From assembly GCF_027484705.1 (NCBI RefSeq), contig NZ_JAIXSL010000004.1, forward strand, positions 56,996 through 120,995: a stretch of DNA of 64,000 nt, written 5' to 3'. A program made the translations under genes and the position numbers. A model generated the notes under the pieces. It ran no database searches, was not told where the DNA came from, and saw only the letters and a program-made list of their open reading frames with translations. Positions 18,319 through 47,677 of this stretch are shown in pieces. This DNA comes from Flavobacterium sp. (lineage in GTDB: Bacteria; Bacteroidota; Bacteroidia; Flavobacteriales; Flavobacteriaceae). Numbering within the stretch: the stretch's first letter is position 1; each line of letters opens with the position of its first letter.

Positions 18319-18320
18319 CC

Positions 18321-19619: not shown

Positions 19620-21234
19620 ACTTTACAGTTTTCAAATTATTCTGAATCTCTTTTTCCAACGATTTACTTTCAGCAAATAATTCACTTAAATTACTTTCAA
19701 AAGCTTTCATCTTACTAGCAAATTCAGCAGGAGTGATATCCGTATATTCAATTTTTACTTCAAAATATTGCCCGGCACTCAAGCTGTAATTTTTGGCAAT
19801 AATGTCTTCATAACTCACTACTATCGAAAAATCATCAATCGCCGTTTTGGTGTTAAAGGTTTTAATAATTTTATCTTCTTCCTCTGTAGATAAAAGTGTT
19901 TTTTGGTTTTTACCTTCTTTTACTGTAGTTCCTAGTTTAGAAGCGTCAATCAGCACAACATCGCCTTTGTTTTGCTTGTCTAAAAAGATAATAGAAACGT
20001 TAGTTCCTGTAGTGGCAAAAATATTACTGGGCATACTCACCACACCTGCTAACATTTTATCGGCTACCATTCTTTCTCTAATCTTTTTGTCAATACCACT
20101 TTGTGCCGTTATAAATCCTGTGGGTACTACAATAGCCGCTTTTCCGTTGGGTTTTAACGAATACATAATGTGTTGCAAAAACATCAAATAAATCGCCATG
20201 CTTTCTTTCTTAGCAGCAGGTATATTCGGTATTCCGGCAAAAAAGCGTTCGTGGTTTTCTTTGGTGTCTAAATCGGCACTAAAATCTGAAAAGTCTAATT
20301 TAAACGGTGGGTTACTCACAATGTAATCAAACTGCTGCAAGCGTCCGTTTTTGTCTTTGTGAAATGGTTCTAATATGGTATTGCCTTTTACTACATTGGG
20401 TATTGAATGCACCAAATCGTTTAGGATTAAATTTAGGCGCAATAGGTTAGAGGACTTCTGCGAAATATCCTGAGTATAGATCGTGCATTTGTCTTCTCCA
20501 ATCTGGTGGGCTAAATTCATCAACAATGTTCCCGAACCTGCAGAAGGATCATAACAAGTTACATTGCTTACCTTTTCATGCACCAAGCAACGCGCCATGA
20601 TTTTAGCAACGGCATGTGGCGTAAAGTATTCGGCGTATTTTCCGCCGCTGTTGGTGTTGTAATCTTTGATTAAGTACTCAAATATCTTCGCGTAAAAATC
20701 AAACTTCTCATGGAAGATATTCTCAAAACTAAAGTGTATTAGTTTGTTGATAATTGCCCTGCAAAAGTCATCGCGTTTATCGGTTACGTATTTACTGATG
20801 TTTTCAAACAGTACTATTTTTTCGCCACCTTCTGTAATTACCGAGAAAATGTCGCTGTTCTCTTTAGCGATATCCAACAAGGTGTTGTCAAAAATGTCGG
20901 CAAACTTAGGTTCGTTTTGTTTTTCAAATAAAGTCGATATAAATTGTGAAGGCTGAATCCGCGCCGTGCTTTCGCTCATTTGCATCATCAGCATTTCGTA
21001 GTCATTCTCGTTATAGCTTTTTAATACGGTTTCCCAATTGTCGGCTTCGGCAATTTTTTTGTCTAGCTTTTTTACTTCATGAACAAACTTATCGTTCAGG
21101 AATTTATATAGAAATACTTGGGTAATAATTTTAAATTCATTGCCATCGTTTCCCAAACCATAATTGGCACAAACGCTTTTTAAATCGTCAATGAGTGCTT
21201 CGGTTTGTTTCTCGAAATTTTTTGTGGTGGTCAT
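19612..21234 (-). CDS. hsdM: type I restriction-modification DNA methyltransferase
   Basis: CYDPSAGSGTLLMNLAHQIG, YIVSNPPFKLDF, GGKYAEYFTPHAVAKIMARCL. Confidence 0.95.
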   Translation of the reverse strand: MTTTKNFEKQTEALIDDLKSVCANYGLGNDGNEFKIITQVFLYKFLNDKFVHEVKKLDKKIAEADNWETVLKSYNENDYEMLMMQMSESTARIQPSQFISTLFEKQNEPKFADIFDNTLLDIAKENSDIFSVITEGGEKIVLFENISKYVTDKRDDFCRAIINKLIHFSFENIFHEKFDFYAKIFEYLIKDYNTNSGGKYAEYFTPHAVAKIMARCLVHEKVSNVTCYDPSAGSGTLLMNLAHQIGEDKCTIYTQDISQKSSNLLRLNLILNDLVHSIPNVVKGNTILEPFHKDKNGRLQQFDYIVSNPPFKLDFSDFSADLDTKENHERFFAGIPNIPAAKKESMAIYLMFLQHIMYSLKPNGKAAIVVPTGFITAQSGIDKKIRERMVADKMLAGVVSMPSNIFATTGTNVSIIFLDKQNKGDVVLIDASKLGTTVKEGKNQKTLLSTEEEDKIIKTFNTKTAIDDFSIVVSYEDIIAKNYSLSAGQYFEVKIEYTDITPAEFASKMKAFESNLSELFAESKSLEKEIQNNLKTVKYE

Positions 21235-21253
21235 TTTTGTTTTTTAATTATTG

Positions 21254-24200
21254 TTAGGCAACCCTGCCGTAAAATTCGTTCATGTATTCTTTTACTATCA
21301 ATCCGTTGATGCGTTTGGTTGCAGCAGCGTCAATTTCTATGTGTTGTTTGTTTTTAAATTGGTCAATGACTAGGCGCATCATCATACGTTCTACAAAACT
21401 TTCATTTTCTAAAAGCTTGGAGTTTTGCAGTATTTGGTTATCGACTTCTTTTTTCAATCCTTGTAAAGCCTCAAACAATTTACTCTCACTGTCGGTTAAT
21501 GGGTCTTTTTCCATCAAGCGTTTGTGCAGGCGCGCATATTTTTCGTCGTTGTCGTATTTGGCTTTAAGCAATTGGTTTTTGCGTTCGAGTTCTTTGGCTT
21601 GCGCGTATATTTTTTCCAAAGCAGCAATATTGCTTTCCATTTCTTCTTTGGTTACCTCATTGAGGTTCTTCTTTTTAAACAAGCGCTCCAATTCTTCTCT
21701 TAGTGAAATAAATTCGGGTGCTTTTTGGTCGAAATTGCCGCCTAGCATTTCACGTGTTCTTTGAAGAATATCTTTCAATTGGTCGGCCAATATCATTTCT
21801 TCTTCTTTTACTTTTACAAAAGCAAACAACACGTCTTCTAGAGCAATATTTAACAAATTGGTTGTGTCTACATTGGTTTCTAACGCTATTTTAGTGTTAA
21901 TCAGTGCCAAGTGATTATTGGCTTCTCGTGACAGCACTGTTAGTTTATGAAAATCAAGTTGGTCTAATAATTCGTAATTTCCTGAAAGACGGATTAAGTT
22001 GTAAAGACTTTTTGCATTGTTAAGCACACGCGCAATTTTTAGAACCTCGTTCCGGTCTTGAATCTGGGTAATTTGCTGCGAGAAAATTTCAGCGTTTCTC
22101 GTATCGAAATGAAATAGCACTTCTTTAATTTCATCTATTTCCGTTTTTATTTCTTCTGCGGATTTGAATAGATTGGAGTAATGCTCCATTTCATCGCCCA
22201 ATTCCGATTGCAGCTCTCTGAAATAATCCTGATTGGTTTTATCAAACTCTTTTTGAATATCAGCAAAATCAACTACATAACCATAGCGAAAGTCTTTGTA
22301 AGTTCTATTTACCCTTGTTAGGGTTTGCAATAAATTATGTGCTTTTACAACGCGTCCGATGTATAATTTTTTCAATCGGGGCGCATCAAAACCAGTCAGC
22401 AGCATATTGAAGACAAACAGAAAATCTATTTTGCCGTCTTTAAAATCCTCAACTTGATCCTTGCGGTCTTGTTTCGTTCCGATATCGTGCAGAATCAAAG
22501 CAGCAGTTTTTACCTTACTGTCGTTTTTCTTTTGATTGCCATAGCTTTTATTGGGTTCAGCAGCTATTGCAATAGGTTCTTCGACAGCCTTTTCTTCATA
22601 TTTAGATTGAAAGATTTCATACATCATTTTGGCTTGTTCTGACGAATCGCAAACCACCATGCCACCAATAGAATTATCATTCATGGTTATTCTGGCATTC
22701 TCAAAATCCTGAACGATATAATCCAACATCGGTTCAACAAATTTATGGTGCGCATAAACTTGTTTTCGGTCACCATGTCCTTTTAGAATTTCAATTTCTT
22801 CTAAAGCTTTTTTCAGCGTTAATTTATAACTGGTTTCAATTTCTTCCCGAATCAAGCGTAAGGTATAACCATCAGCAATCGATGAATTGTAATAGTATTT
22901 GTGAATATAGCCACCAAATAACGCTTTAGAATTATAATCATCACCTAATAATGGCGTTCCCGTTAGTCCGATTTTTATGGCATTACTATCTGATTCATTC
23001 AGGTTGGCTAAGAAACTTCCTTTGGGATTATAACTACGATGCACTTCATCTAAAAAGTATACACGCTGAATGTTCAACTGATAATCCATATTTTTTATAA
23101 CATTCGGATCGTCTTCAAATTTTTGAATATTGACAACTGTAATTTCCGGCTTTCCGGAATTATTATGAATTACACTTGTAGACTTAATGTCTTTTGCAAA
23201 AGCATCTCTTGAATTAATTTCGTGAACCACAAGACCACGGCTTTTAAACTCTTTCGCCGATTGCGTCAGTAAATCAATTCGATCAACTATAAAATAAAAT
23301 TTAGGAATGATACCTTTCTTCTGATAATAATCAGTTAAGTACTTTACGTTGTAATAAGCCAAAGCTGTTTTACCACTGCCTTGGGTGTGCCAAATAATTC
23401 CTTTTTTGATTCCATCCTCCAGTTTTGCTTCAATGGCCTTGGTAGCAAAAAGTTGCGGATAACGCATGATGTGTTTTTCCAATCCTTTACTGCCTTTCAC
23501 ATAAGCAAAGGCATATTGCAACATAAATTGCAAACGTTCTTTTTGAAATAACGACGTGCAAATTCGGTTAGTAGGTGAATTTGGATTTTTATTCGTGATA
23601 AATTCAGGGGCATTTTTAATTCCGACTAAATTGGTGTCTTTTAAAACATTTGTTTCAAGCTCGTCATCTATATCAATAAGCAATACGTCTAAAGAAAATT
23701 TTTCTTCTTCTCTGAAATAATTAAAGCTAGGTTTATGATAAGAAGAGGTAGAGTAGAAGGCTCCTTCTATAGGTTGTGGTGACGAATTATCATATTCCAT
23801 GTTGTTAGAGAACACCATCAACTGAGTAATATTAATGAACTTCCGGAACTTCTTATTTTGAAACCGACGTTCCATTCGCTTATGTTCCGCCAAAACACCA
23901 TCTTGATTATTAGGTTTTTTAACCTCAATAAAAACCAGCGGTATTCCATTGATCAATAACGTAATATCGGGTCTGAATTCTTCTTCGTCCTTTTTACAAG
24001 GCAATTCAGTCACAACATTAAAAGTATTGTTATTGAAATTCTCAAAATCTATCAAACGAATTCCAGATTGGCTGGTAAGCTTTTCATAAAAGGCTTTTCC
24101 TAAATCTTCATTTTCCAAAGTAAGTGCTACTTCATCATAGAAACGGGAAACATCGCTATTACTTAACTCAGGATTCAGCCTCTTAACACTTTCGTTAAAG

Positions 24201-24325
24201 ATGTCAGTAAAAATATTGGTATTCTCATCCCATAGCTGACCTGACAACGATAAGTACTTATACCCTAATCGCATAAGGTGCAGTATAGCAGGTATTTTTA
24301 CACGAGAGTCTTCGTTAAAAGCCAT
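21254..24325 (-). CDS. hsdR: type I restriction endonuclease subunit R
   Basis: RPDITLLINGIPLVFIEVKKPN nuclease motif, GIIWHTQGSGKTALAYYNVKYL, FLDEVHRSYNP, IGLTGTPLL. Confidence 0.96.
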   Translation of the reverse strand: MAFNEDSRVKIPAILHLMRLGYKYLSLSGQLWDENTNIFTDIFNESVKRLNPELSNSDVSRFYDEVALTLENEDLGKAFYEKLTSQSGIRLIDFENFNNNTFNVVTELPCKKDEEEFRPDITLLINGIPLVFIEVKKPNNQDGVLAEHKRMERRFQNKKFRKFINITQLMVFSNNMEYDNSSPQPIEGAFYSTSSYHKPSFNYFREEEKFSLDVLLIDIDDELETNVLKDTNLVGIKNAPEFITNKNPNSPTNRICTSLFQKERLQFMLQYAFAYVKGSKGLEKHIMRYPQLFATKAIEAKLEDGIKKGIIWHTQGSGKTALAYYNVKYLTDYYQKKGIIPKFYFIVDRIDLLTQSAKEFKSRGLVVHEINSRDAFAKDIKSTSVIHNNSGKPEITVVNIQKFEDDPNVIKNMDYQLNIQRVYFLDEVHRSYNPKGSFLANLNESDSNAIKIGLTGTPLLGDDYNSKALFGGYIHKYYYNSSIADGYTLRLIREEIETSYKLTLKKALEEIEILKGHGDRKQVYAHHKFVEPMLDYIVQDFENARITMNDNSIGGMVVCDSSEQAKMMYEIFQSKYEEKAVEEPIAIAAEPNKSYGNQKKNDSKVKTAALILHDIGTKQDRKDQVEDFKDGKIDFLFVFNMLLTGFDAPRLKKLYIGRVVKAHNLLQTLTRVNRTYKDFRYGYVVDFADIQKEFDKTNQDYFRELQSELGDEMEHYSNLFKSAEEIKTEIDEIKEVLFHFDTRNAEIFSQQITQIQDRNEVLKIARVLNNAKSLYNLIRLSGNYELLDQLDFHKLTVLSREANNHLALINTKIALETNVDTTNLLNIALEDVLFAFVKVKEEEMILADQLKDILQRTREMLGGNFDQKAPEFISLREELERLFKKKNLNEVTKEEMESNIAALEKIYAQAKELERKNQLLKAKYDNDEKYARLHKRLMEKDPLTDSESKLFEALQGLKKEVDNQILQNSKLLENESFVERMMMRLVIDQFKNKQHIEIDAAATKRINGLIVKEYMNEFYGRVA

Positions 24326-30204: not shown

Positions 30205-31551
30205 ATGATATTCATTTCTTACAGGAGAAAAGACGAACCTTTTGCTGCAGGCAGGATTTTTACGGACCTTAGCCATACATTTGGTAAAGAGTTTTTGTTC
30301 AAGGATGTAGATAACATAAGGTTTGGAGACAATTTCAAGGAAGTAATTTTTAACCATATCAGCAAAGCGCAGATATTTTTGACAGTTATTGGTGAAAATT
30401 GGAATGAGCAAAATGAGGAAGGCTTGTTTAGGTTATTTGAAAAGGAGGATTACATCAGGTTGGAAATAGAATGTGCGTTGCATAACGGCACACGGATAAT
30501 CCCTGTTCTGATTGGTGATGCTAAAATGCCTAAAACAGACTCAGTTCCGGAAAGTATTCACACAATACTACCTTTAAATGCCGCTAAGGTTCGGGTAGAT
30601 CCTGATTGGACTCCGGACATGCAGCGTCTGACAAGTATAATTAAGGATCTTATTTCTAATGATAATGCCCTTATTGATGCTGCACAAGTCAATAAAGACG
30701 TAAAGGCAGAGGAAAACTTATGGAGTTACGCCAAGAAAACAAACATTATAAAAAGATATAAATCTTATCTGGAGCAGTTCCCCAACGGGAAGTATGCTGC
30801 CGAAGCCAAAAGCAAGATTGAAACCATCAGGAAAAAATTTATAGCGGACGATATTGAGTCGCAGGAAACAGAAATTACTACAGAAACCCATGAAAAGCTC
30901 GACAATGTCTTCATCACCGTTAAAGGAGGTGAATTCATTATGGGATCCTTTGGAACAGAAAATGAGGAACCTCCACATAAGGTTAGTCTACAGGGGTATG
31001 CCATTTCAGGAACTCCCGTAACAGTTGGGCAGTATCGTACTTATTGTTTGCAAACCGGTAAGCTTATGCCTGGCGCGCCCAAGTGGGGTTGGAACGACAT
31101 CCATCCTATGGTCAACGTAACCTGGCACGAAGCTTTTGCTTATTGCGAATGGGCAGGGGGAAGGCTACCTACTGAAGCCGAATGGGAATATGCCGCCAAA
31201 GGTGCCCATAAATCTGAAGAATCTGCGCCTTTAGGACAGCTTGAATTTTCCGGACGATCTATTGGCAAGCAATCGGAAACCATGCCAGTTGCGACCTATG
31301 AGGCCAATAAAATAGGACTATATGACATGGGTGGCAACATCAATGAGTGGTGCTATGATTTTTATGCGGATTATGATTCGGGTAGGAAAATCAACCCGAG
31401 AGGGCCGATGCGGGGAATCACAAAAGTCGTAAAGGGCTGGCCGTTTGACGATACCAGGAACCGCTCCCATAGCCAAAGAAAAGAATCGTTCGCAGATGAG
31501 CGTAGCAGCAGCCTGGGTTTTAGGATTGTAAAGGAAATTTTAAACAGATAA
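30205..31551 (+). CDS. TIR domain fused to formylglycine-generating-enzyme-like (FGE/sulfatase-modifying) domain
   Basis: N-term MIFISYRRKDEPFAAGRIFTDLSHTFG...VIGENW; C-term FITVKGGEFIMGS...HPMVNVTWHEAFAYCEWAGGRLPTEAEWEYAAKG...GNINEWCYD...SSSLGFRIV. Confidence 0.93.
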   Translation: MIFISYRRKDEPFAAGRIFTDLSHTFGKEFLFKDVDNIRFGDNFKEVIFNHISKAQIFLTVIGENWNEQNEEGLFRLFEKEDYIRLEIECALHNGTRIIPVLIGDAKMPKTDSVPESIHTILPLNAAKVRVDPDWTPDMQRLTSIIKDLISNDNALIDAAQVNKDVKAEENLWSYAKKTNIIKRYKSYLEQFPNGKYAAEAKSKIETIRKKFIADDIESQETEITTETHEKLDNVFITVKGGEFIMGSFGTENEEPPHKVSLQGYAISGTPVTVGQYRTYCLQTGKLMPGAPKWGWNDIHPMVNVTWHEAFAYCEWAGGRLPTEAEWEYAAKGAHKSEESAPLGQLEFSGRSIGKQSETMPVATYEANKIGLYDMGGNINEWCYDFYADYDSGRKINPRGPMRGITKVVKGWPFDDTRNRSHSQRKESFADERSSSLGFRIVKEILNR

Positions 31552-31554
31552 GGT

Positions 31555-33048
31555 ATGAACAGTATTATACACAATCCTTTTAGAATCCTGAACAGTTCCA
31601 TTGCTGCGGACCAGAAAAACATAAACAGGAATTATTCCGACCTGCAAATGTGCATAAAGTTCGATGACATTAACCAAATCGATGACAGTTGGAAAGGTAT
31701 TCTGCCCAGGATAGAATACTCTGAGACACTCATCAATGATGCCCATCACAAAATATCAAACGATAATGACAGGCTTTTTCATTCGTTGTTTTGGTTCCAG
31801 ATCAACAATCAGACAGACTCGGCTTTTTTCGAGGCGGTAAAGCAAAACAACTTTTCCCATGGCCTCGCGCTGTTGCAAAATGAAACTGCCAAGCCGCTTA
31901 CCGACACGAACTTTTCTTCCTACAAGAACTTCGCATTGTTGAGCTTGATTTCGCTTTCAGGGCAGGCCACTTCTAAAACCAATGTCCTAAGGGGCATTTC
32001 GGTGGCTTTCGAATCGATCTATTTTTTTACCGAAAACCAGAACCATACCTTCCTGCCTGGAACAGAATATATAACAGACCTTACGACGGTAAGGGTTCGT
32101 TTTGCCAAAGAGATTGCCATGATTCTGAAGCCATTCGTCGGTGAAGGAAAACGGTTCAAATTGAGCGAGATCATCGGTGCCATCCCGGAATTGCCAAAAA
32201 TTGAGATTGTCATTGATGTCATCACGAAAGAGTATTCGACCATACCGCTGGAAATGCTCAAAAAAAAGATAGAAGAAGCCGACCAGGCTTTAGAACAGGA
32301 TGAGGCGAATGATTTTGAAAACGGTTATAAGATTGGCGCCGGACTATTGGATTCCGTTCTTCATCTCTACCAGAGTTCGGCTGCGTTGATGCTTGAAACA
32401 GAGTATGCCCTGATTTCAGATATGCTTGCCTCAACGCTCAATTTCTGTGCGGTAAAGCATTACAATAAAAACTACAAAAAAAAGAACGGGGCAGTCGTGA
32501 CAAAGAATACGATCAGCCTCTCGGAAAAGGCATTGAGCATATGCATGGATGCCAGTACCAGGGAAACCATAACGGCCAATCTGGAAGTTTATCGCTCCAA
32601 TAAACTAAAACTACAGGTTGATGCCATTACGACAAAACTGCCCGATAATATTTATGTCTTAAGCAACGCTGAAATAGATGCGATACCCGGAAAAATATTA
32701 GGGCTGCTCATTGAGTATGATGCCCTGATGGTAAAATTGAAAAGCCGTGAGATAACATTTGATGAAATCAGCATCGACCTCAATGATGAGCTGGTCTTTA
32801 CGGTTTTCAACTTTATAATTGATTATATAAACCACACAGGGAAAAATAAGGAAATGCTACAGGTTTTAAACAAGCTGTGTACTTATCCGATGTCTGAAAG
32901 TGTGGCCAGCTTCTACAACAAGAACATAAAAGTCTACAATGAGAATATGCAAAAAGCCACAGATAATTCCGGTTGCGCAGGCGTGTTGGTGATCATGATC
33001 GTATCAACCGGATTGGCTTTTTTCGCACTAATGCAAACAGTAATGTAA
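31555..33048 (+). CDS. J-domain-like co-chaperone candidate with C-terminal TM helix
   Basis: N-term NPFRILNSSIAADQKNINRNYSDLQ...RLFHSLFWF resembles degenerate J-like N-termini of Hsp70-associated proteins; C-term GVLVIMIVSTGLAFFALMQ. Confidence 0.55.
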   Translation: MNSIIHNPFRILNSSIAADQKNINRNYSDLQMCIKFDDINQIDDSWKGILPRIEYSETLINDAHHKISNDNDRLFHSLFWFQINNQTDSAFFEAVKQNNFSHGLALLQNETAKPLTDTNFSSYKNFALLSLISLSGQATSKTNVLRGISVAFESIYFFTENQNHTFLPGTEYITDLTTVRVRFAKEIAMILKPFVGEGKRFKLSEIIGAIPELPKIEIVIDVITKEYSTIPLEMLKKKIEEADQALEQDEANDFENGYKIGAGLLDSVLHLYQSSAALMLETEYALISDMLASTLNFCAVKHYNKNYKKKNGAVVTKNTISLSEKALSICMDASTRETITANLEVYRSNKLKLQVDAITTKLPDNIYVLSNAEIDAIPGKILGLLIEYDALMVKLKSREITFDEISIDLNDELVFTVFNFIIDYINHTGKNKEMLQVLNKLCTYPMSESVASFYNKNIKVYNENMQKATDNSGCAGVLVIMIVSTGLAFFALMQTVM

Positions 33049-33059
33049 TTATCAAGCTT

Positions 33060-33542
33060 ATGGACCCTAAAATTTTCTTACTCATAATATTCGCAATACT
33101 GTTGCTGATGTTCTTCGCATTGTCGGCCGTATTTATGGCTGCGATGAGAATATACATTCCTGTTCCCGGAGAACTGCAGTCGGAGCCTGCCAGTCTGGAA
33201 CCCGCTGAAGCCATTCTCGAGATTGACCATACACCGTTTATCAAGATGTCCATAGAAATTACAAGGATGAAGAAACGACTCGTCAAATCGGAATTCAAGG
33301 ACAGGAAGCATTTAGAAAAAGCCCTCGAGCGGATCGAAGAATTCTTCAAGGAGAAAGGCTATTATATCATTGATTACGAAGGCGTGTCTTATGATGAGGG
33401 CATGAACCTGATTGCGCATTTCGTGCCTTCTGAAACATTGAACCCCGACGAAAAAATAATAACAAAAGTGATAATCCCTCAAGTAAACTTTCAAAACATC
33501 CTGATACATCCTGCTGAAGTCGAGGTGAGTTTTGGAGAATAA
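33060..33542 (+). CDS. membrane-anchored GrpE-like nucleotide exchange factor candidate
   Basis: N-term TM, helix, then FKEKGYYIIDYEGVSYDEGMNLIAHFVPSETLNPDEKIITKVIIPQVNFQNILIHPAEVEVSFG, resembling the GrpE head; between J-like and Hsp70 genes. Confidence 0.6.
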   Translation: MDPKIFLLIIFAILLLMFFALSAVFMAAMRIYIPVPGELQSEPASLEPAEAILEIDHTPFIKMSIEITRMKKRLVKSEFKDRKHLEKALERIEEFFKEKGYYIIDYEGVSYDEGMNLIAHFVPSETLNPDEKIITKVIIPQVNFQNILIHPAEVEVSFGE

Positions 33543-33553
33543 ATTCTTATAAG

Positions 33554-36094
33554 ATGGCAATGAAAAAAATTAATTTTGGTATAGACCTGGGCACTACAAA
33601 TTCCGCATTGGTAAAGGTAAACCAAGGGTCGTTGATGGTATACAAAAGTGAATTCCAGAAAGATACGACACCGTCGTGTGTCAGTTTCAACAAAAAAGGA
33701 AATATCAGGGTCGGGGATGGAGCGCTCAATGGTTTTCGCAGTGATATGAGGCTCGCCTTGCGGAAAACCGATGACAATACTTCAAATACCTTTCTGGAAT
33801 TTAAAAGGACAATGGGCACTGACAAGGTGTATTACAGCTCCAATGTCAGCGAACAGTTCTCTTCCGAGCAATTGTCAGCGGAAGTCCTGAAAAAGCTAAA
33901 GACTTATGTCGATAATGAAACGGTTGATGCAGCTGTAATCACAGTGCCCGCAAAATTCCGGCAGAACCAGCTCGACGCCACGCAAAGGGCAGCAAAACTC
34001 GCCGGATTCAAGTATGTGGATTTATTGCAGGAACCCATAGCGGCCTCCATAGCTTACGGATTGGAAAGCAAAAACCTGAATGGCTTCTGGATTGTCTTTG
34101 ATTTCGGAGGAGGAACATTTGATGCCGCACTCATGAAAGTAGACCAGGGCGTCATGAAGGTCATAGATACCGAAGGCGATAACCACTTGGGCGGTAAGAA
34201 TATCGATTACCAAGTTGTCGATGAGATATTCTTTCCTTTCCTGCGCAAAAACTACCAGATCCAGGAACTCGAAAACAATCCGCTAAAAAAAGCACTGTTG
34301 CGTGATGCTCTGAAATCATTGGCCGAAGAAGCCAAAATCCAGCTCAGTGTAAAGGATAAGTATGAGATTCTGACCGACGAGCCTATCTGTCTGGATGATG
34401 TCGGTGAGGAAATTGAAGTTGACCTGCAGCTTGACGTTGCGCAGTTCCACGATGTAGTGAGGCCTATATACCAAAGGTCTGTCGATATCATCAAGACAAT
34501 ACTGGACAGGAACAATATGTCCAAAAGCCAGCTCAATACGATAATACTCGTAGGAGGTGCCACCTATTGCAGGCTCATCAGGGAAATGCTTGCCGCGCAG
34601 ATTTGCCCGAATGTAGACACCAGTATAGATCCTATGCTCGCCATAGCCAAAGGTGCGGCCGTGTATGCCTCTACAAGGGATGCACAAATTACCGATACCA
34701 ACAATGATGCTCAGCAACCATACCAGCAGCGAGATTCCAACGACATCTTGGAACTTGATATCACCTATCCAAGCACAACGACAGAAATGGAAGTAAAGGT
34801 TGGGATTAAAATCCTCAACAAAGACGAGAAGAACTACAGCTATCAATTGGCGCGCAACGATGGTGCCTGGACAAGTGAGACCATTAAGTTCAATAACGAC
34901 AGGGCAGTTTTATCGGTGCTACTACTCAAGGACACCATCAATACATTCAAAATAACCATGATATCAGATCAGGGCGATATCGTAGCTTTCCACCCAAACT
35001 ATTTCTCCATCATACAAGGAATGGATATCGCCAATGCCACATTGCCCTATTCGATCTGTATCGATGTATTCAATTCCAAGCGCCAGGCAGATTTATTAGC
35101 GTTACTCCCAGGACTTGAAAAAAACCAAAAGCTTCCGGCCAAAGGGAAAGCGCTGTTCTATACACCATCTGATATCAGGCCAGGACACAATGAAGACAGG
35201 ATAGAAATTACGATTTATGAAGGCGATCCTGAAACCCGCGCGGTCTATAATGAACCCATAGGCAAACTTTCTGTTACCGGAGAGCATGTAAACCGTTTCA
35301 TTCCGGCACATCAGGAAATAGAGGTCATGCTTGAAGTGGACAGTTCGCGCAGGATGAAGTTGTCGGTTTATTTGCCTTATATCGATGAATCGATCGATTT
35401 CGATTTGCCTGAGATGAAGCAGAACGAGTATGATTCCGAGAATATCGTGGCCGAGATCAATACTGCTAGGGACGAGCTTTTCCACCTTAAGGGAGAACCA
35501 AAGCAAGGGCAAAACGAAAAGGTCCTGAAACTTAGCAACGAGCTCGATGTCATCAATACGCTATTGCAAAACAGCGCGAATGATTACAATACTAAAACCC
35601 AGGTTGTGGAGCGGCTACGCGAAATCTGCATCATAATCGATAATTTGAAATACCAGAACGAATGGCCTAAAGTCGAAGAAGTATTGCGCGAAGGGTTTGA
35701 AAGCATGGGCGAGATCATCCAGACTTATGGCGATGAGAACCATGCAAAACAATTTGCGTTGCTGCAGAAAATGGCCAATCAGATATTGGTTACAAAGGAT
35801 ATTCCCAATGCTAAGTTGCTCATAGAAAAAATTATGGATTTCAGGCAGGAATTGATCAACCGCAATCCGCAGTCATGGGTATATGCACTAGAAAACTTTG
35901 AGATGCAGTTTGACCTTTATTCCTGGAATGACAGGCAATTGGCGAAGGACACCATGGATTATGCACTCCAGAATATAAGCAACGCTGCCGTAGTGAAAAG
36001 TTCTGTCCTCAAACTGTTTTCCTTATTGCCAAACGAAGAGAATGAGGAAATCCTGAGACCAATTAAAAATAATTACAAACCACGGATGAATTAA
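33554..36094 (+). CDS. Hsp70/DnaK-family protein (divergent, 846 aa)
   Basis: INFGIDLGTTNSALVKV, LLQEPIAASIAYGLE, WIVFDFGGGTFDAALMKV, TIILVGGATYCRLIREML. Confidence 0.95.
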   Translation: MAMKKINFGIDLGTTNSALVKVNQGSLMVYKSEFQKDTTPSCVSFNKKGNIRVGDGALNGFRSDMRLALRKTDDNTSNTFLEFKRTMGTDKVYYSSNVSEQFSSEQLSAEVLKKLKTYVDNETVDAAVITVPAKFRQNQLDATQRAAKLAGFKYVDLLQEPIAASIAYGLESKNLNGFWIVFDFGGGTFDAALMKVDQGVMKVIDTEGDNHLGGKNIDYQVVDEIFFPFLRKNYQIQELENNPLKKALLRDALKSLAEEAKIQLSVKDKYEILTDEPICLDDVGEEIEVDLQLDVAQFHDVVRPIYQRSVDIIKTILDRNNMSKSQLNTIILVGGATYCRLIREMLAAQICPNVDTSIDPMLAIAKGAAVYASTRDAQITDTNNDAQQPYQQRDSNDILELDITYPSTTTEMEVKVGIKILNKDEKNYSYQLARNDGAWTSETIKFNNDRAVLSVLLLKDTINTFKITMISDQGDIVAFHPNYFSIIQGMDIANATLPYSICIDVFNSKRQADLLALLPGLEKNQKLPAKGKALFYTPSDIRPGHNEDRIEITIYEGDPETRAVYNEPIGKLSVTGEHVNRFIPAHQEIEVMLEVDSSRRMKLSVYLPYIDESIDFDLPEMKQNEYDSENIVAEINTARDELFHLKGEPKQGQNEKVLKLSNELDVINTLLQNSANDYNTKTQVVERLREICIIIDNLKYQNEWPKVEEVLREGFESMGEIIQTYGDENHAKQFALLQKMANQILVTKDIPNAKLLIEKIMDFRQELINRNPQSWVYALENFEMQFDLYSWNDRQLAKDTMDYALQNISNAAVVKSSVLKLFSLLPNEENEEILRPIKNNYKPRMN

Positions 36095-36154
36095 ACTCTA
36101 ACGCAATCTAGAATGATTTATGAGCTTATTTATTAATCCCTTAATTAGCTAAAA

Positions 36155-36475
36155 ATGGAAGATGTTAAAAATCAGGATTTGGTACTCTACAATCAGGTAG
36201 TGGATATGAAAAGAAACGGCAAGACTAAAGCTGAAATCAAATTGAGCTTGACAGAACAGGGCATTGATGAGGTCAAATGCAACGAAATCCTCGGCAATGT
36301 CTACCGTTACGATGATAAAATAAAAAGTTCTGAGTCTTCAGGCAATATAGGTTGGGGATTATTTCTGATATTAGTAGGGGTAATTGCAACGTCAGCTTCC
36401 GATGGGCATACGGTTTTTTATGGGGCCATCCTTGTTGGGATTTATAAATTGTTCAAAGGTTTTTCGCAAAACTAA
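36155..36475 (+). CDS. small membrane protein in the TIR/Hsp70 cluster
   Basis: 106 aa: helical N-term, two hydrophobic segments. Confidence 0.6.
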   Translation: MEDVKNQDLVLYNQVVDMKRNGKTKAEIKLSLTEQGIDEVKCNEILGNVYRYDDKIKSSESSGNIGWGLFLILVGVIATSASDGHTVFYGAILVGIYKLFKGFSQN

Positions 36476-36502
36476 AATCAAACTTTTAATTCAAAGGATA
36501 AT

Positions 36503-37690
36503 ATGGAAACAACATTTTCTTCGCGTTGGGGGCATTTGGCCCAGAGATATGAAAAGCAGCAACCCAGAAAAATATTGTCGCTCGATGGTGGCGGGATACG
36601 TGGCGTATTGACACTCGAAATCCTGCTCGAACTCGAAACGCAACTAAAAGCCACTTCAACAAAAAAAGAAGATTTCAGGCTTAGCGATTACTTTGATTAT
36701 ATCGGCGGAACCAGTACAGGTGCTATTATTGCTGCCGGATTATCAATTGGGATGTCGGTTACTGAATTGCTTGATTTTTATGAGAAGCGCGGTGAAGCAA
36801 TGTTCGATAAGTCTTTTCTGTTTAAAAAAGTCAAATCTTTTTATAAAGACGGACCGCTTCTGAATGAATTGAAAAATACGTTCGGCACCGGAAGCATCGA
36901 TATTCTCTCTGCAAGCGAAAAACCTTTTAAAACACTTTTGTTGGTGGTAACGATGAACAGATCTACAGATTCTCCATGGCCCATCAGTAATAATCCCGAC
37001 GCCAAATATAACAACAAGGAAAAAAACGATTGCAATCTCAAAATACCGCTATACCAACTGGTTCGTGCAAGTACTGCGGCACCGGCATATTTCCGGCCTG
37101 AAACCCTGCAATGGGATCCTGCCGATCCTGATAAAACCTTTGTTTTTGTTGATGGAGGCGTTACACCATACAACAATCCCGCTTTTCTGATGTATCGTAT
37201 GGCAACCCAAAGTCCGTATAAATTAAACTGGCATACTGGTGAAAAAAATCTGCTGATTGTGTCGGTCGGAACAGGATCGGCGGCAAGTCCGGGGGTGTAT
37301 GACAATCTTTTGGAGACACTGACGGAACTCCCGACCAATCTCATGTATGCGATGCAGACCGATCAGGACATTAATTGTCGTACCGTCGGGCGTTGCATAT
37401 ATGGCGCTCCAATCGACCGGGAATTGGGAGACCTAATTCCACTGGATGCTAATAATAAAGCACTGCCGTTAGATAGTGACGCGAACCGCCATTTTAGTTA
37501 TGTTCGTTACAATGCTGATCTGAGTCAGGAAGGATTGAATGCCCTCGGACTTGATGATATCGATAGTTCCGAAATCAGAGCAATGGACAATGTTAAGAAT
37601 ATTACTGACCTCAGACTTGTAGGAAGGATAACCGCAAAGAAACAGGTAAAAGTAAGCGAGCATTTTATTAATTTTAAGAACGAATCCTAA
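36503..37690 (+). CDS. patatin-like phospholipase
   Basis: ILSLDGGGIRGVLTLEIL, YIGGTSTGAIIAAGL (GTSTG), FVDGGVTPYNNPA (DGG). Confidence 0.95.
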   Translation: METTFSSRWGHLAQRYEKQQPRKILSLDGGGIRGVLTLEILLELETQLKATSTKKEDFRLSDYFDYIGGTSTGAIIAAGLSIGMSVTELLDFYEKRGEAMFDKSFLFKKVKSFYKDGPLLNELKNTFGTGSIDILSASEKPFKTLLLVVTMNRSTDSPWPISNNPDAKYNNKEKNDCNLKIPLYQLVRASTAAPAYFRPETLQWDPADPDKTFVFVDGGVTPYNNPAFLMYRMATQSPYKLNWHTGEKNLLIVSVGTGSAASPGVYDNLLETLTELPTNLMYAMQTDQDINCRTVGRCIYGAPIDRELGDLIPLDANNKALPLDSDANRHFSYVRYNADLSQEGLNALGLDDIDSSEIRAMDNVKNITDLRLVGRITAKKQVKVSEHFINFKNES

Positions 37691-37702
37691 AATTAGTAAT
37701 CC

Positions 37703-38290
37703 ATGCATACACTTTTGTTTACCGGGCATTTGATTGATTCAAAAAATAGAAAATCACCACGCTTTCCCGCAGAAAAGGAATCGTTGGTCAAAGATGCGAT
37801 GACAAACCAAATTATGGAAATCAATGCCCAGTTCACTAATCTCATAGGCATTGCAGGCGGAGCTAGTGGTGGTGACATATTATTTCATGAAATATGTGCT
37901 ATGCTAAACATCCCGACGGAAATCTATCTTGGACTTTCGGTTGAAGATTTCATGTCTGAATCAGTTTCCCCCGCTGGAGCGCATTGGGAAAAGCGATACA
38001 TGAATCTCATTGATACATTGCCAGTGCACATTTACAAGGGCTTGAAGGAAGGTGAGAACGTATGGGAGCAAACCAACCTCTGGATGCTGCGCAGCGCCAT
38101 GAAAGACGGACCCAGGCAGGCAACCCTGCTAGCACTATGGGATGGTAAAGAAGGAGACGGCCCGGGCGGTGTGGCACATTTCATTGAAGCCGCAACGCAA
38201 TCTGATGTTAAGGTCAAAACAATAGACATTAAATGTATTATAGATAGACTGCATATTGCATCAGAAACAGTAAACAAAGCAAAAAAATAA
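37703..38290 (+). CDS. SLOG/TPALS-like nucleotide-binding domain protein
   Basis: LLFTGHLIDSKNRKSPRFPAEKE...IGIAGGASGGDILFHEICAMLNIPTEIYLGLSVEDFMSESVSPAGAHWEKRY. Confidence 0.6.
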   Translation: MHTLLFTGHLIDSKNRKSPRFPAEKESLVKDAMTNQIMEINAQFTNLIGIAGGASGGDILFHEICAMLNIPTEIYLGLSVEDFMSESVSPAGAHWEKRYMNLIDTLPVHIYKGLKEGENVWEQTNLWMLRSAMKDGPRQATLLALWDGKEGDGPGGVAHFIEAATQSDVKVKTIDIKCIIDRLHIASETVNKAKK

Positions 38291-38297
38291 ATAAATT

Positions 38298-39584
38298 ATG
38301 ATACATCCGGAATTATTAAAATTCGCACCTGAACCCACGCCGTTAATCAATGGCAATCTATGGCATGTTTTTCTTTCTTATCGCTCGGTAAACAGGTCTT
38401 GGGTTTTAAACCTCTATGATATACTGACGGAATTAGGACACAAGGTTTTCTTAGACCAGTATGTTATGAAATCCGGGGATATATTGATAGAACAGCTCGA
38501 AAATGCGTTGGAAAAAAGCCAAGCTGGAATCCTTGTTTGGTCGAACGAAGCAAGGGATTCAGAGTGGGTCAAAAAGGAATACTATACCATGGAAAGTAAG
38601 GTCACCAAAGACAAATCATTTCATTTTGTCCCCCTAAGGGTAAATCAGGTGAGTTTGCCACTTTTCGCGAGTAACAGGATTTTTATTGATTTTTCGGCAT
38701 ATCCTGACGGGCCGAATGGCGGTGATCTGATAAGATTGTTGCATGCGATTGTCGGTCAGCCTTTGAGCGCGGCCGCGGTTAAATTCTCAAACGAGCTTGA
38801 CGAATCCTCCGAGATGGCTTCTGCACAGGTCAATGCATCGATAAGGAATGGCAGGGATGAAAGATTGTTGCAATTGTTTGATGCAGGTGGCCTTCCATGG
38901 GAAACATCAGCGGCACTCGGCTGTAAAGCCGCGAATGGTTTGATTAGCCTTAAAAAATATACTGAAGCAATAACGATGCTCGACAAGCTTGAAAAAGCAT
39001 TCCCAAAATCATTAAGACCCAAACAACTGAAAGCTTTGGCATTAGCAAGAAGAAATGAAGGAAATGACGCTGAAGATTCGCAAGAAATTTTGGGTATCCT
39101 CAAAAGGCTCAATTATTTAGATACGGAGTCGTCGGGCATTTATGCAAGGACATGGATGGACCGCTATGAAAAAAGCAAAGACATCAATGATCTGCTGCAA
39201 TCTCGAACGCTCTATGCCGAGGCTTTTGAAAGATCTCCGGATGATTATTACACGGGGATTAATGCAGCAGCAAAAAGTATTTTCATTGGTACAGATGAAG
39301 ATATTGCAACGGCATACGATTATGCGGATCGCACTCAAAAAATTGTAGGTGATCAGATGGTTCCCGACGATTATTGGAAAACCGCGACTGTAGCAGAAGT
39401 GATGTTGATTAAAAAGCAATATAAAGAAGCGGGGGCAATGTATGCAGAAGCCATTCAAATCGAACCAAAATCTTTTGGAAGTCAAGAATCTACAAAAAAA
39501 CAAGCCTTAAGATTATTAGAAAAACTAAAAGCCACCGAAGAGGAAAAATCATGGGTATTGGCTGCGTTTAAGCATTTGAATTGA
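38298..39584 (+). CDS. TIR domain plus TPR protein
   Basis: WHVFLSYRSVNRSWVLNLYDILTELGHKVFLDQYVMKSGDIL...VWSNEARDSEWVKKEY; helical repeats downstream. Confidence 0.85.
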   Translation: MIHPELLKFAPEPTPLINGNLWHVFLSYRSVNRSWVLNLYDILTELGHKVFLDQYVMKSGDILIEQLENALEKSQAGILVWSNEARDSEWVKKEYYTMESKVTKDKSFHFVPLRVNQVSLPLFASNRIFIDFSAYPDGPNGGDLIRLLHAIVGQPLSAAAVKFSNELDESSEMASAQVNASIRNGRDERLLQLFDAGGLPWETSAALGCKAANGLISLKKYTEAITMLDKLEKAFPKSLRPKQLKALALARRNEGNDAEDSQEILGILKRLNYLDTESSGIYARTWMDRYEKSKDINDLLQSRTLYAEAFERSPDDYYTGINAAAKSIFIGTDEDIATAYDYADRTQKIVGDQMVPDDYWKTATVAEVMLIKKQYKEAGAMYAEAIQIEPKSFGSQESTKKQALRLLEKLKATEEEKSWVLAAFKHLN

Positions 39585-39632
39585 ACAATTGTCTTGACTG
39601 GATTTGAAATTAATAATTTTAAATTTTGAAAA

Positions 39633-42290
39633 ATGAAAAGAGCATTACCACTATTACTTTTTTTCATATTGTCGAATGCATTCGCCCAACATCCGGAAAA
39701 GAAATGCGATGATGTTTATCATGCGGCAAACAGTCTGTTCCTTAAAGGTGATTATTCGCTCGCGATAAAGAAGTTGTCGGCTTATAAATTGTGCGGAAAT
39801 ACTGCCCAGAATAAACAAGCTGATGAATTGCTCCTTAAAATTTACAACACCGTAAACCAGCAAAAAAAAGAAGCAGAACTTCAAACAAAAATTGCAAGAG
39901 AACAGCAGTATTTAGCAGAAAATAGGGCAAAAGAATTAGAAGTTTCAAACAAAAGAATCACCCAAGCCAATATTGAATTACAATCCGGAAGCCTTGCTAT
40001 TCAAGCCCACGAATTATATGGTAGTAAAGATTATACCAATGCACTAAAGAAAGCATACCAAGCCTATACAATTTATCCCGGAAAAGATGCTATAGGAATA
40101 TTAAAAGCCATCACCAGTGATTCTGACGCTATCTTTTTCGAAAAGCAAAGGAGTGTTTCCGGGAACATGGATTTTTCGTTATCCAGAAATGAAATTACTA
40201 TATCACCCGATGAAAAATTCTTAATTTCGGCCTACCATAACCTTGTTTTTTATAGCCTAACCGACACTATTATAAAGTTTATCAAACCTGTTCAGGAAAC
40301 GATACAACAGCTCTCATTCTCAGGTGACGGAAAAAGTTTTGCAACACTACATAAAAACGGCAAAATTACGATTTGGAATTATCCGGAATGCCGACAGTTA
40401 AGTTTTATAACGCCTGAAGCTAATAAGGATTATCGTGACTATTCAGATCATAAAAATATTGCAATATCCTATGATGGAAGTGAACTCATTTATTCCTGTA
40501 AGGAATCATTGTGTATATATTCTGTAAACGATAATAAAATGAAGGTTTCGCGCATGCCCGGAAAAAAAGAATATCAAATAATGTCAATCATGGTACCTAA
40601 AAAGCAAGACAGATTCTATCTTGAATATTCTGAAGGTTTTCTTACAATGGATTTTAATGGGAATATTATCAATAAAAAACCCACGTTTAGTAATGGTTCA
40701 ACGATAAGCAAATTATCACCTAGCGGTAAATATTTAGCTTTTGCACGATACAATAACGATAGCATTGTCGTATATAACGTTCAAAAGCCGGAGGAACCCG
40801 AATATCGCTTCAAAACAAATAATGGAGGTACTTCGGCAATAGGGTTTTCAGCGGCAGATGATAAAATTGTTGTCGGTTCATACAGTAATGGTAAATCAAT
40901 CTTATATGAATTAGGTGATGATCGTCCAGTTAAAGTACTTCGCAATGAGTCGACCCCAAAAAGCATTGATTTTATAGAGAATGATCAAAAGGTGATAATT
41001 ACTGATTATTCTAATGCGATAACCTGGGTGGTTGAAGAGAACCAAAGAACTCCAAAATGCCATACAAAGTATATCAGCAGCGCATCATTTTCAGCTGACG
41101 GTCAATATATGGTTACAGGTAGTATAGATAATGATGTAAAGCTTTTTGATAAAAGAGGCAAGTTGCTCGATACTTTCTCCCACAGCAGGTATCTTAAAGA
41201 TGCAAACTTAACTTTTGATGAAATTTTAAATGAAACATCAAGAATGTATTTGAGCAGCACGAATGTTGACTATACATCCATTAGCCCTGATGGCAACTAT
41301 GTATTGTTTAAATATTCCAATGGTATATTGCTGATTTGGGATTGCAAAAACAATAAATTCCTGAAGAAGTTTGAGGTTGAGTCTGAAAATAAAAGCAAAT
41401 CATCTATAATTGAGATGCCTCAAAACAGCATCATTTTTTCCGGTAATGGAGAATTTTGTGCTTTCAAAAAGGCAAATGATAAAATCGCATTATATTCTTT
41501 TGCTGACGATAAAGATTTCTATTTCGATATGGAAGATATCGTGTTTTCAAACACTTCCTTTTCACCCGATGGAAAATTGCTGTGCTTTGCCAATTCCGCG
41601 AAAATTAGAATCATAAAGTGTGACAGCAAGGAAACGATCTTCGAAAACATTGTGCCATCTGAAATCGATAAAATTTATTTCACTGATAATGTGAACATTC
41701 TAATCATAAATAAAAGGGGATCGATTTCAATGCACAATTCCCTAACAAATAAAATCATCTTGCTGAAATCCTATATAGCTGAACCGGAATTTGTACATTA
41801 TTCAAACCATGAAATCATAGCAGTTTCAGGATCACATACAATTAAATTGATAGATCTTGCGAGCGATACAGAACAAATAATAACAACAGGCATCGATAAG
41901 ATTACAATGCTTGCCTGGGTAAATGATGCTTATATTGTTCTCGAGAGACAAGATGTTTTAGAAGTATGGAATGTTCCACAGAGAAAAAGGACTGGGATGA
42001 TATATCGTGGCATGTATGATCCAACGCATATTTATCCAATCCTTGATAAAAATCTTATTGCCATAAGTTCTACGGGCTATGACGGTGACAGTGGAGATGT
42101 ATCAATTTATAATTTAAAAGGCGAGCTTCTGCAATATTTTCCTGAAATGACATTTCCTCACAATCCGGAATCGATAGTGACTTCAGATGGAAATTATCTG
42201 CTGGCTGTACCCTGCAAAAAGAAAGAAAACGACGGGACTTTAAAAATATTAACCCTTACCGATAAAATTTTGTCCTATATAAAACAATAA
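39633..42290 (+). CDS. exported protein: TPR-like N-term, coiled coil, beta-propeller (WD40-like)
   Basis: Signal peptide MKRALPLLLFFILSNAFAQ; KGDYSLAIKKLSAYK; repeated ISPDEKFLISA, FSADGQYMVTGSIDNDVKLFDKRG, ISPDGNYVLFKYSNGILLIWD. Confidence 0.82.
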   Translation: MKRALPLLLFFILSNAFAQHPEKKCDDVYHAANSLFLKGDYSLAIKKLSAYKLCGNTAQNKQADELLLKIYNTVNQQKKEAELQTKIAREQQYLAENRAKELEVSNKRITQANIELQSGSLAIQAHELYGSKDYTNALKKAYQAYTIYPGKDAIGILKAITSDSDAIFFEKQRSVSGNMDFSLSRNEITISPDEKFLISAYHNLVFYSLTDTIIKFIKPVQETIQQLSFSGDGKSFATLHKNGKITIWNYPECRQLSFITPEANKDYRDYSDHKNIAISYDGSELIYSCKESLCIYSVNDNKMKVSRMPGKKEYQIMSIMVPKKQDRFYLEYSEGFLTMDFNGNIINKKPTFSNGSTISKLSPSGKYLAFARYNNDSIVVYNVQKPEEPEYRFKTNNGGTSAIGFSAADDKIVVGSYSNGKSILYELGDDRPVKVLRNESTPKSIDFIENDQKVIITDYSNAITWVVEENQRTPKCHTKYISSASFSADGQYMVTGSIDNDVKLFDKRGKLLDTFSHSRYLKDANLTFDEILNETSRMYLSSTNVDYTSISPDGNYVLFKYSNGILLIWDCKNNKFLKKFEVESENKSKSSIIEMPQNSIIFSGNGEFCAFKKANDKIALYSFADDKDFYFDMEDIVFSNTSFSPDGKLLCFANSAKIRIIKCDSKETIFENIVPSEIDKIYFTDNVNILIINKRGSISMHNSLTNKIILLKSYIAEPEFVHYSNHEIIAVSGSHTIKLIDLASDTEQIITTGIDKITMLAWVNDAYIVLERQDVLEVWNVPQRKRTGMIYRGMYDPTHIYPILDKNLIAISSTGYDGDSGDVSIYNLKGELLQYFPEMTFPHNPESIVTSDGNYLLAVPCKKKENDGTLKILTLTDKILSYIKQ

Positions 42291-42293
42291 ATT

Positions 42294-43043
42294 ATGAAAC
42301 AGTTGATTCAATACAGATGCTTTGTTTTTTGTGCTACTGGTTTACTTTTTGTTTTTCCTTCATGTAATATCCGTGAAGAAATATGGCTCAATAAGAATGG
42401 TAGTGGAAAATATACTTATGAGATTGTTACCGATCCAAAAGCAACCGAACTGTTTACTTCTAATTTTCCGGCAGAAGGAAAAGCATCCGATGTTTTGGAG
42501 ATCATGTCGCAAAAAGATATTGATACCATATTGCCTCAAAAAGAGTACTCAAATATGCTGCAACCGGCTTTCCCTAATATGTTCAATAAGACAACATTAA
42601 ATTTAAAAAGCGACCATAAGATTCAGGAATTGAAATTCAGGATTCAAATTCCATTTAAGAATATTGCTGAGTTGAATGAAGGCATATCCAATTTCAGGTT
42701 TATGAAACTGTCGATTTTTAGGAACGCTTTCGCAGATACCATAACAAAGGCGGCGCAATTTTATGAATTAAAAGACGGCGCCTTAAAAAGAAATAAAGTT
42801 GAGGATTTTTCAAGAGGGCTTCCTGTTACGCAAACGGATTTGGAATTAGGAAAACTAATGTTCATGAACTCGTATCAAACCATTGTTTTTCACTTGCCTA
42901 ACAAAGTAAAATCGACTTCTTATGTCAATAGAGAAACTGAAGAAGAAACAGTGGAAGTCAAAGAAAAAACAGTGACCGTTAAAATGCCATTCGCAGGCAT
43001 CCTAACCGAAAAAAACAAAGTGACGGGAAAAATAGAATTCTAA
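42294..43043 (+). CDS. lipoprotein
   Basis: Lipobox-like GLLFVFPSC; starts 4 nt after previous stop. Confidence 0.7.
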   Translation: MKQLIQYRCFVFCATGLLFVFPSCNIREEIWLNKNGSGKYTYEIVTDPKATELFTSNFPAEGKASDVLEIMSQKDIDTILPQKEYSNMLQPAFPNMFNKTTLNLKSDHKIQELKFRIQIPFKNIAELNEGISNFRFMKLSIFRNAFADTITKAAQFYELKDGALKRNKVEDFSRGLPVTQTDLELGKLMFMNSYQTIVFHLPNKVKSTSYVNRETEEETVEVKEKTVTVKMPFAGILTEKNKVTGKIEF

Positions 43044-43056
43044 TCCAGCAAGCACC

Positions 43057-43974
43057 ATGGAAAAATACCACGCTTTTATATCCTATTCACACAACGATAA
43101 GCATTATGTTTCAGCCATACAAAAGTCGATTGAAACTTTAGGACTGCCTTTTCATAAGAAATGGAAATCCGATGTAAGCTTTTTCATTGACGAAAAGAAA
43201 ATGAAAGTTTCCGAAGATTTGTCCGAAGAAATTAAGAAAGGTTTAAGGGATTCCAAATACTTGATCGTGATTGCCTCTCCGAATTCAGCGAGTACTGACT
43301 CTTGGGTCATCAAGGAAATAGAATATTGGTACGCCATTAAAAATAATTCTACTGGTGGCATCAGTAGTTTTCATCTAATAGTATTGGATGGTTCTATAAA
43401 ATGGGACAGTCAGGCGCAAGCATTCAGCGTCGATTCTTCAGCACTTCCGAATTTTGGCAATATCAAATTCAACGCACAACCCATTTGGGCTAACGTCCAA
43501 AACTACTGTAAAGACGGTAAAATTCAGACTAAAAACCCCAACTATGAATGGGAAATTGCGAAAGTGAAAGCATTGTTGTTGGATAAAAGTCCTGATGAAA
43601 TAATTGATGAAGTTGCAAAAGAGAAACGATTGTTTCGAATTATCACAGGCTTTGTAATTTCCTTACTGGTCATGTTGTCTGCATTTGCTTTTTACTTGCG
43701 CGGCGAAGCTGTTTCTAAAAAAAATCTCGCGGAAGCCAAAACAAAAGAAGCATTGAACAACCTTAAAAGATTTAAGTTAGAAGAGTTCGAAAGAAACTTC
43801 AAAAATGGCAATACTTATTTGAATGCTGAAGAATATTGCTTTGCGGACAGTTGTTTTTCGGAAGCCCTTAAAACCACAAAAAATAAGGATTATAGAGAAT
43901 TGTTTCCAAAATCAAAAATCAAATATCTCGATTCTATTTCTAGTGTATGTAAATCTAAATCTAGCTGTAAATGA
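43057..43974 (+). CDS. TIR domain protein with one TM helix and extracytoplasmic coiled-coil tail
   Basis: YHAFISYSHNDKHYVSAIQKSIETLGLPF...SWVIKEIEYWY; TM FRIITGFVISLLVMLSAFAFYL; Lys/Glu-rich helix after TM. Confidence 0.9.
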   Translation: MEKYHAFISYSHNDKHYVSAIQKSIETLGLPFHKKWKSDVSFFIDEKKMKVSEDLSEEIKKGLRDSKYLIVIASPNSASTDSWVIKEIEYWYAIKNNSTGGISSFHLIVLDGSIKWDSQAQAFSVDSSALPNFGNIKFNAQPIWANVQNYCKDGKIQTKNPNYEWEIAKVKALLLDKSPDEIIDEVAKEKRLFRIITGFVISLLVMLSAFAFYLRGEAVSKKNLAEAKTKEALNNLKRFKLEEFERNFKNGNTYLNAEEYCFADSCFSEALKTTKNKDYRELFPKSKIKYLDSISSVCKSKSSCK

Positions 43975-47322: not shown

Positions 47323-47677
47323 GTAATTTATTGTGGTTTTGTTTAACTAAGGTAGGGTTTTTTATACTTTTCTAATTATTAAGAACTTACTATATTCTAT
47401 GTGGTTTTAATGTCTCAAGACTTTTTTATTTTATAACAGTTACTATAAAAAATACCCTATTTATTTTAAGAAGATATATATTTAAACTGTTGGTTGTGAT
47501 TTGATGATTTGATTTTTGATACTATTTATGCGCTCTAAAATAAAAGGTTGAAATTACTTTTTCTCCGTTGGAAGCATGTTTAAAAAGAAGCATAAAAAAA
47601 CAAAAACCCTTTAAACATGAGTGTTTAAAGGGTTTTTATTTTTTACGAATTATCGAAAATTATAAAATTTACCTGTT

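Follow-up and report, generated by a model that had tools for sequence, protein, structure and literature searches.

Introduction

Functional J domains are defined by an HPD motif. In the mitochondrial import motor, mtHsp70 acts with Pam18/Pam16 and Mge1, and Pam16 is a J-like partner that lacks HPD; DjlA-type proteins combine TerB and J. GAP1-N2 GTPase conflict systems of actinobacteria and firmicutes are predicted to include HSP70, GrpE and DnaJ-FNIII (Kaur et al., 2020; PMC7159879), and the response of the bacterial immune receptor bNACHT25 to phage depends on DnaJ and on the function of its J domain (PMC12169576). The present analysis concerns a 64,000-nucleotide stretch of Flavobacterium sp. 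DNA (the window), in which genes for a J-like protein, a GrpE-like protein and an Hsp70 stand in a row on the plus strand at 31555-36094. Because the genome encodes ordinary DnaK, DnaJ and GrpE elsewhere, this trio very probably constitutes an additional, private Hsp70 set.

An initial annotation of the window had proposed a dedicated, membrane-associated Hsp70 machine at this locus. This much is borne out: the Hsp70 has one partner of GrpE fold and one that is J-like, a transmembrane (TM) helix is predicted in each, and the genome has its own DnaK, DnaJ and GrpE besides. Tethering of the trio to the membrane through these predicted anchors is likely. The genes also share a predicted operon with Toll/interleukin-1 receptor (TIR) proteins and a patatin-like phospholipase, and the relationship between the chaperones and these putative effectors is weighed below; the further idea in that annotation, that the machine could keep them inactive or sense misfolding during infection, is conjectural.

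The Trio Proteins

The J-like gene (31555-33048, 497 amino acids, aa), the GrpE-like gene (33060-33542, 160 aa) and the Hsp70 family gene (33554-36094, 846 aa), all on the plus strand, are the second, third and fourth genes of the operon. The Hsp70 matches Pfam HSP70 (E=5e-70) and DnaK structures in the Protein Data Bank (PDB). Its nucleotide-binding domain (33575-34675, residues 8-374, delimited by the Pfam span and by alignment to the genome's own DnaK) carries the motifs GIDLGTTNSA, FKRTMGT, LLQEPIAA, DFGGGTFD and ILVGGATY, so that the ATPase motif set is intact by comparison with DnaK. A linker-like NDILELDIT (residues 396-404) aligns with DVLLLDVT of DnaK. From there DnaK goes straight to PLSLGIE, whereas the window protein has about 90 inserted residues before the first strand of the substrate-binding domain (SBD); linker and insert together occupy 34739-35038, to approximately residue 495. 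This insert is absent from DnaK and common to relatives across phyla. The following region resembles the SBD-beta domain (35039-35395, residues 496-614, by alignment to DnaK), and a profile of the C-terminal half of the family matches the DnaK SBD (6w6e residues 387-578, E=0.004). The remainder (35396-36091), lid-like and beyond, is judged helical from the family alignment.

As judged by its sequence, the window Hsp70 is a distinct subfamily and not DnaK itself. Against NCBIfam prok_dnaK it scores 231 bits where the cut-off is 823, and it passes none of the curated DnaK/HscA equivalog cut-offs. A long branch separates the family from DnaK in the Hsp70 tree, within which the window copy forms a deep, poorly supported branch (support 0.41 and lower).

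The product of the gene at 33060 had been described as a 161-aa protein with an N-terminal TM helix and a C-terminal GrpE head pattern. The length is 160 aa; the strongly hydrophobic helix is present (residues 5-23, 33072-33128, plus strand, mean hydropathy 3.08), and the head pattern was recovered by structure prediction. An AlphaFold (AF2) model made from 77 relatives (pLDDT 87) places a helical pair at residues 58-98 and a GrpE beta head at residues 101-159 after the TM helix. In a Foldseek search of the PDB with this model, ranks 1-13 are all GrpE (E from 1.2e-5, the best with probability 1.00), and the first unrelated structure appears at rank 14 (E=0.05). The unrelated fold that could have overturned the proposal did not occur, and the modelled protein is of the GrpE fold, with helical pair and beta head. 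Sequence families give a fainter signal: 18 of the 77 relatives match Pfam GrpE (PF01025) weakly (best E=7.6e-5), and the window protein alone has no Pfam GrpE match at E<=1, being below the gathering score. Alignment of the GrpE-like family with 20 Bacteroidota GrpE sequences by hhalign gave no match (the alignments were shallow and two open reading frames mis-extended), and because of this the GrpE identity rests on fold and Pfam. Matches of the family profile to BAG domains (E about 0.4) were set aside as mere helix matches.

The GrpE-like family varies in length and architecture. Each of the 71 relatives that exceed 200 aa has a predicted TM segment. The window copy falls short of the roughly 300 aa of most relatives and lacks their coiled coil; modelled as a monomer, it has a TM helix where GrpE has the long N-terminal helices of its dimer. 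Proteobacterial relatives of about 115-125 aa lack the TM and coiled-coil part altogether.

The 497-aa protein upstream had been likened to degenerate J-like proteins with a C-terminal TM helix. The J-like domain comprises approximately residues 1-80. NPFRIL starts at residue 7, and the LFHSLFWF stretch that had been singled out earlier is indeed present at about residues 74-81; across the family the N-terminus follows the pattern NP[FY]R-(I/V)-(L/I)-G, while the domain ends in a conserved LFWF. Searched against the PDB, a profile of the family N-terminus has 13 distinct matches at E<=5, every one a J domain (lowest E=0.002), and hhalign aligns the family with Bacteroidota DnaJ over 66 columns (probability 66%, E=5e-5). 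In the AF2 model (pLDDT 87), a short helix (8-11), a long helix (20-35), a loop and two helices (57-68 and 70-77) precede a long helical, TPR-like body and the C-terminal TM helix (residues 474-492, 32974-33030, plus strand, mean hydropathy 2.43 over 19 residues). The profile matches and the N-terminal helices agree with J topology and the helix I/II signature. A whole-chain Foldseek search with this model returned helical-repeat proteins only, none below E=0.001, and no J domains; the J reading comes from the sequence profiles.

The HPD motif is absent from the window protein and from all 67 relatives examined. The 497-aa protein is thus best classed, from its primary structure, as J-like rather than as a J protein proper, and the classical trigger of ATP hydrolysis is not expected of it because HPD is missing. 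For proteobacterial J-like proteins, a profile found no PDB match, and their J reading is an alignment by eye. Taken singly, neither small partner matched a family in Pfam, NCBIfam, PADLOC or PHROGs. As a query for related loci, the J-like protein alone found none, and the Hsp70 motif alignment succeeded.

A Conserved and Mobile Cassette

A motif scan for the Hsp70 in 84,980 genomes yielded 345 relatives. From these, 80 were retained as the basis of the locus counts given here, and gene-order counts are limited to loci with enough flanking sequence. The relatives occur in Bacteroidota, Desulfobacterota, Gamma- and Betaproteobacteria, Campylobacterota, Chlorobi, Ignavibacteria, Verrucomicrobia and other phyla. 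A GrpE-like gene lies immediately 5' of the Hsp70 gene in 69 of 72 loci and is itself preceded by a J-like gene in 55 of 60. All 166 matches to the J-like or GrpE-like models fall within 6 kb of a gene related to the window Hsp70. Since the gene order recurs and distant matches are lacking, the association of the three genes goes beyond chance.

In most genomes the trio belongs to a larger cassette. An AAA+ protein is encoded downstream of the Hsp70 in 56 of 66 loci (for example, L013 11880-13691), and a TerB-like gene is found in 30 of 53. Walker A is present in 71 of 71 copies of the AAA+ protein. Most non-proteobacterial copies also have an N-terminal protein-kinase-like domain, in several cases with a degenerate HRD motif. 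Together, Hsp70, J-like, GrpE-like and AAA+ genes suggest a private bichaperone, an Hsp70-AAA+ pair predicted from gene content. Neither an AAA+ nor a TerB gene accompanies the window copy, and the sole match to the cassette AAA+ protein in the genome, confined to the AAA domain, is a 651-aa frame taken here as FtsH. At L043 and L056, two Hsp70 genes of the same family as the window copy occur within one cassette. The usual neighbours of trio relatives are AAA+, TerB, DUF6804 and TPR proteins, not toxins. A literature search, weak in that it covered openly licensed papers only, found no description of the cassette, which is apparently undescribed.

Several copies reside on mobile DNA. On a Haliscomenobacter plasmid the cassette adjoins BREX, on a Polaromonas plasmid it adjoins Zorya, at L013 it adjoins hsdM, and further copies lie behind Tn7-like transposition genes. 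In the chromosome of Escherichia coli HeN100 (L227 11630-18413), GrpE-like, Hsp70, AAA+, 228-aa and J-like genes occupy a mobile island in which RADAR rdrB and a dptF remnant adjoin the cassette; among 5,426 complete E. coli genomes, a single one matched the DNA of the Shewanella Hsp70. Viral contigs of IMG/VR also contain the cassette (L214, L215, L216, L217, L218, L219, L220 and L222), some beside phage-type genes or recombinases, so that phages or prophages may carry it as cargo. These defence-neighbour cases form a pattern, not a statistic. The idea that every cassette lies in a defence island was dropped, since many chromosomal loci have housekeeping neighbours. In PADLOC 2023, no model was matched by the three trio proteins, and relatives match only through generic AAA+/kinase similarity. 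The Flavobacteriaceae loci L210-L213 hold a core-like pair of Hsp70 and a 97-aa GrpE-like protein; a gene on the opposite strand may encode a J-like protein.

The Predicted Operon in the Window

Twelve plus-strand genes run from 30205 to 47117 with successive gaps of 3, 11, 11, 60, 27, 12, 7, 48, 3, 13 and -4 bp. A strong bidirectional terminator-like hairpin (47602-47637, stem of 16-20 pairs, T tails) lies 3' of the run; it is much longer than any other across 29.2-48.6 kb and has no equal within the run. Because spacing is tight and the one strong terminator stands at the end only, the run is read as a single predicted operon that encodes, besides the trio, three TIR proteins along with a patatin.

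The first gene (30205-31551) encodes a TIR domain (TIR_2, E=2e-10) joined to an FGE-sulfatase domain (E=1e-42, C-type-lectin-like), and it ends 3 bp before the J-like gene. Downstream of the trio are a 106-aa protein with one predicted TM segment and no assigned family (36155-36475) and the patatin-like phospholipase (36503-37690; Pfam patatin, E=5e-27; PADLOC effector, E=6e-46), to which CBASS phospholipase effectors are related. A 195-aa protein follows (37703-38290) that has no Pfam match and is homologous to part of the fused proteins adjoining patatin elsewhere; the authors' own reading suggests that it is SLOG-like. Next come a TIR and TPR-S protein (38298-39584; TIR_2, E=2e-20; TPR-S, E=1e-13), a WD40 beta-propeller protein (39633-42290, Pfam), a 249-aa protein with a lipoprotein-like start and no assigned family (42294-43043), a ThsB-TIR-like protein with a predicted TM helix (43057-43974; TIR_2, E=6e-11; ThsB_TIR, E=4e-8) and, as the final gene, a second WD40 protein (43971-47117, Pfam).

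Patatin and a fused TPR/SLOG-like protein form a recurrent two-gene module in Bacteroidota (L182-L188); in the window (36503-39584) this module is split over three genes, with the TIR-TPR-S protein. WD40 proteins occur near the trio both in the window (39633-47117) and on the Haliscomenobacter plasmid (L017 1088-5338), and their mutual resemblance is partly via repeats. Close to the operon, a minus-strand cluster (15309-24325) that includes an apparent HsdR-type type I restriction protein (21254-24325) appears to be a defence neighbourhood.

Proposed Mechanism and Alternative Explanations

The explanation preferred here, with moderate confidence, is that 31555-36094 encodes a private Hsp70 machine at the inner membrane. 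From what is established for GrpE and Hsp70 elsewhere, the head of the GrpE-like protein would serve as nucleotide exchange factor for the trio Hsp70. The J-like protein, lacking HPD and comparable to Pam16, may form a membrane platform that docks Hsp70 or its clients instead of triggering ATP hydrolysis in the classical manner, and the two anchors would hold the Hsp70 cycle at the membrane. During phage attack, client load or envelope damage could conceivably shift Hsp70 occupancy and thereby switch the TIR and patatin effectors, here without an AAA+ protein. Encoded in one predicted operon, the trio and the TIR/patatin proteins are expected to be made together; that the trio controls these effectors is plausible, if tentative. 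A wider proposal, equally doubtful, is that the cassette is a mobile immune system, in which a membrane-tethered private Hsp70 cycle acts as infection sensor with exchangeable outputs. Most genomes would use kinase-AAA+ together with TerB for this, one would use NACHT-FGE, and the window genome TIR/patatin.

Several observations weigh against these proposals. Among the loci examined, the pairing of the trio with TIR/patatin was found in the window genome and in no second one; most trio relatives have no TIR or patatin in their operon and keep company with AAA+ and TerB; and the patatin and SLOG/TPR module occurs elsewhere in Bacteroidota without the trio. Many chromosomal relatives lie among housekeeping genes. 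Some of them, in several lineages, lack the AAA+ gene and stand beside biosynthesis genes, and Flavobacteriaceae relatives are found beside folC, ExbBD/TonB-like or Gld genes. Such contexts, the independent recurrence of the patatin module and the customary partners of the trio all favour the idea of a general chaperone, for the envelope or for proteostasis, whose genes share an operon with unrelated defence modules by chance and which exerts no effector control. This explanation has somewhat less than an even chance. It sits poorly with the interleaving of the genes in one tight operon, where TIR-FGE is 3 bp from the J-like gene, and with a DUF4062-NACHT-FGE immune-type protein encoded directly 5' of the cassette J-like gene at L014 (7531-10533) and L076 (444-3446), which bears the same FGE domain as the window TIR-FGE protein. 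L014 and L076 are probably one lineage and hence a single independent parallel. The precedent of DnaJ and DnaK feeding a bacterial immune receptor, bNACHT25 (PMC12169576), is counted in favour of the effector switch.

The cassette might instead be a stand-alone anti-phage system, with an Hsp70 machine that remodels or sequesters phage proteins and TIR/patatin genes that belong to separate systems. Copies without co-encoded toxins on Tn7-like elements, on viral contigs and beside BREX, Zorya and RADAR are in keeping with this idea, which is nonetheless rather unlikely given that no PADLOC model exists for the Hsp70, GrpE-like or J-like proteins and that housekeeping contexts which look vertical are found. 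Finally, the J-like and GrpE-like genes could be unrelated small partners whose resemblance is accidental. In its favour, neither window partner alone passes a Pfam cut-off. Accidental resemblance is nevertheless highly improbable in view of the GrpE-only fold match, the J-domain-only profile matches and a gene order fixed across phyla; for the GrpE part it is already largely refuted.

Comparison With Known Systems

The trio family resembles the DnaK-DnaJ-GrpE bichaperone, with ClpB, in its Hsp70 ATPase motifs, SBD-like domain and GrpE-fold and J-like partners, to which most relatives add an AAA+ protein. It differs in the insert after the linker, the J-like protein without HPD, the anchors on both partners and its operonic and mobile character. 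The cassette AAA+ protein differs in type from ClpB and in most cases carries a fused protein-kinase-like domain; the window copy has no AAA+ protein.

In the mitochondrial import motor, an Hsp70 is likewise tethered to the membrane and works with a factor of GrpE type and with Pam16, a J-like partner that lacks HPD. The function of the motor is different, and its likeness to the trio is at the level of shared folds. With DjlA-type proteins, many cassettes share the co-occurrence of TerB-like and J-like genes with a membrane anchor. In the cassette, however, these are separate genes, without HPD and with an Hsp70 of their own, and the window lacks TerB.

Among immune and conflict systems, the GAP1-N2 systems are likewise predicted conflict operons with dedicated Hsp70, GrpE and J protein (PMC7159879), and by this analogy it would not be unprecedented for a conflict operon to have an Hsp70 set of its own. 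They are centred on a GTPase and have proper GrpE and DnaJ domains, whereas the trio family differs in every partner and no GTPase family was found among the operon products scanned with Pfam. The bNACHT25 receptor illustrates that chaperone function can pass phage infection on to an immune receptor (PMC12169576). It uses the housekeeping DnaJ and DnaK of the host, whereas the window machine is encoded with its putative effectors, to which its link is inferred.

The cassette indicates that a whole second Hsp70 machine moves between bacteria, and the copy in E. coli HeN100 makes its function testable in a laboratory host. If the trio does sense infection, it would generalise the finding on bNACHT25 and DnaJ to immunity that watches or supplies the chaperones on which phages depend. 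Even if it is not immune, a membrane-bound Hsp70 cycle with an inserted domain and no HPD would probe which activities of a J protein are needed to drive Hsp70.

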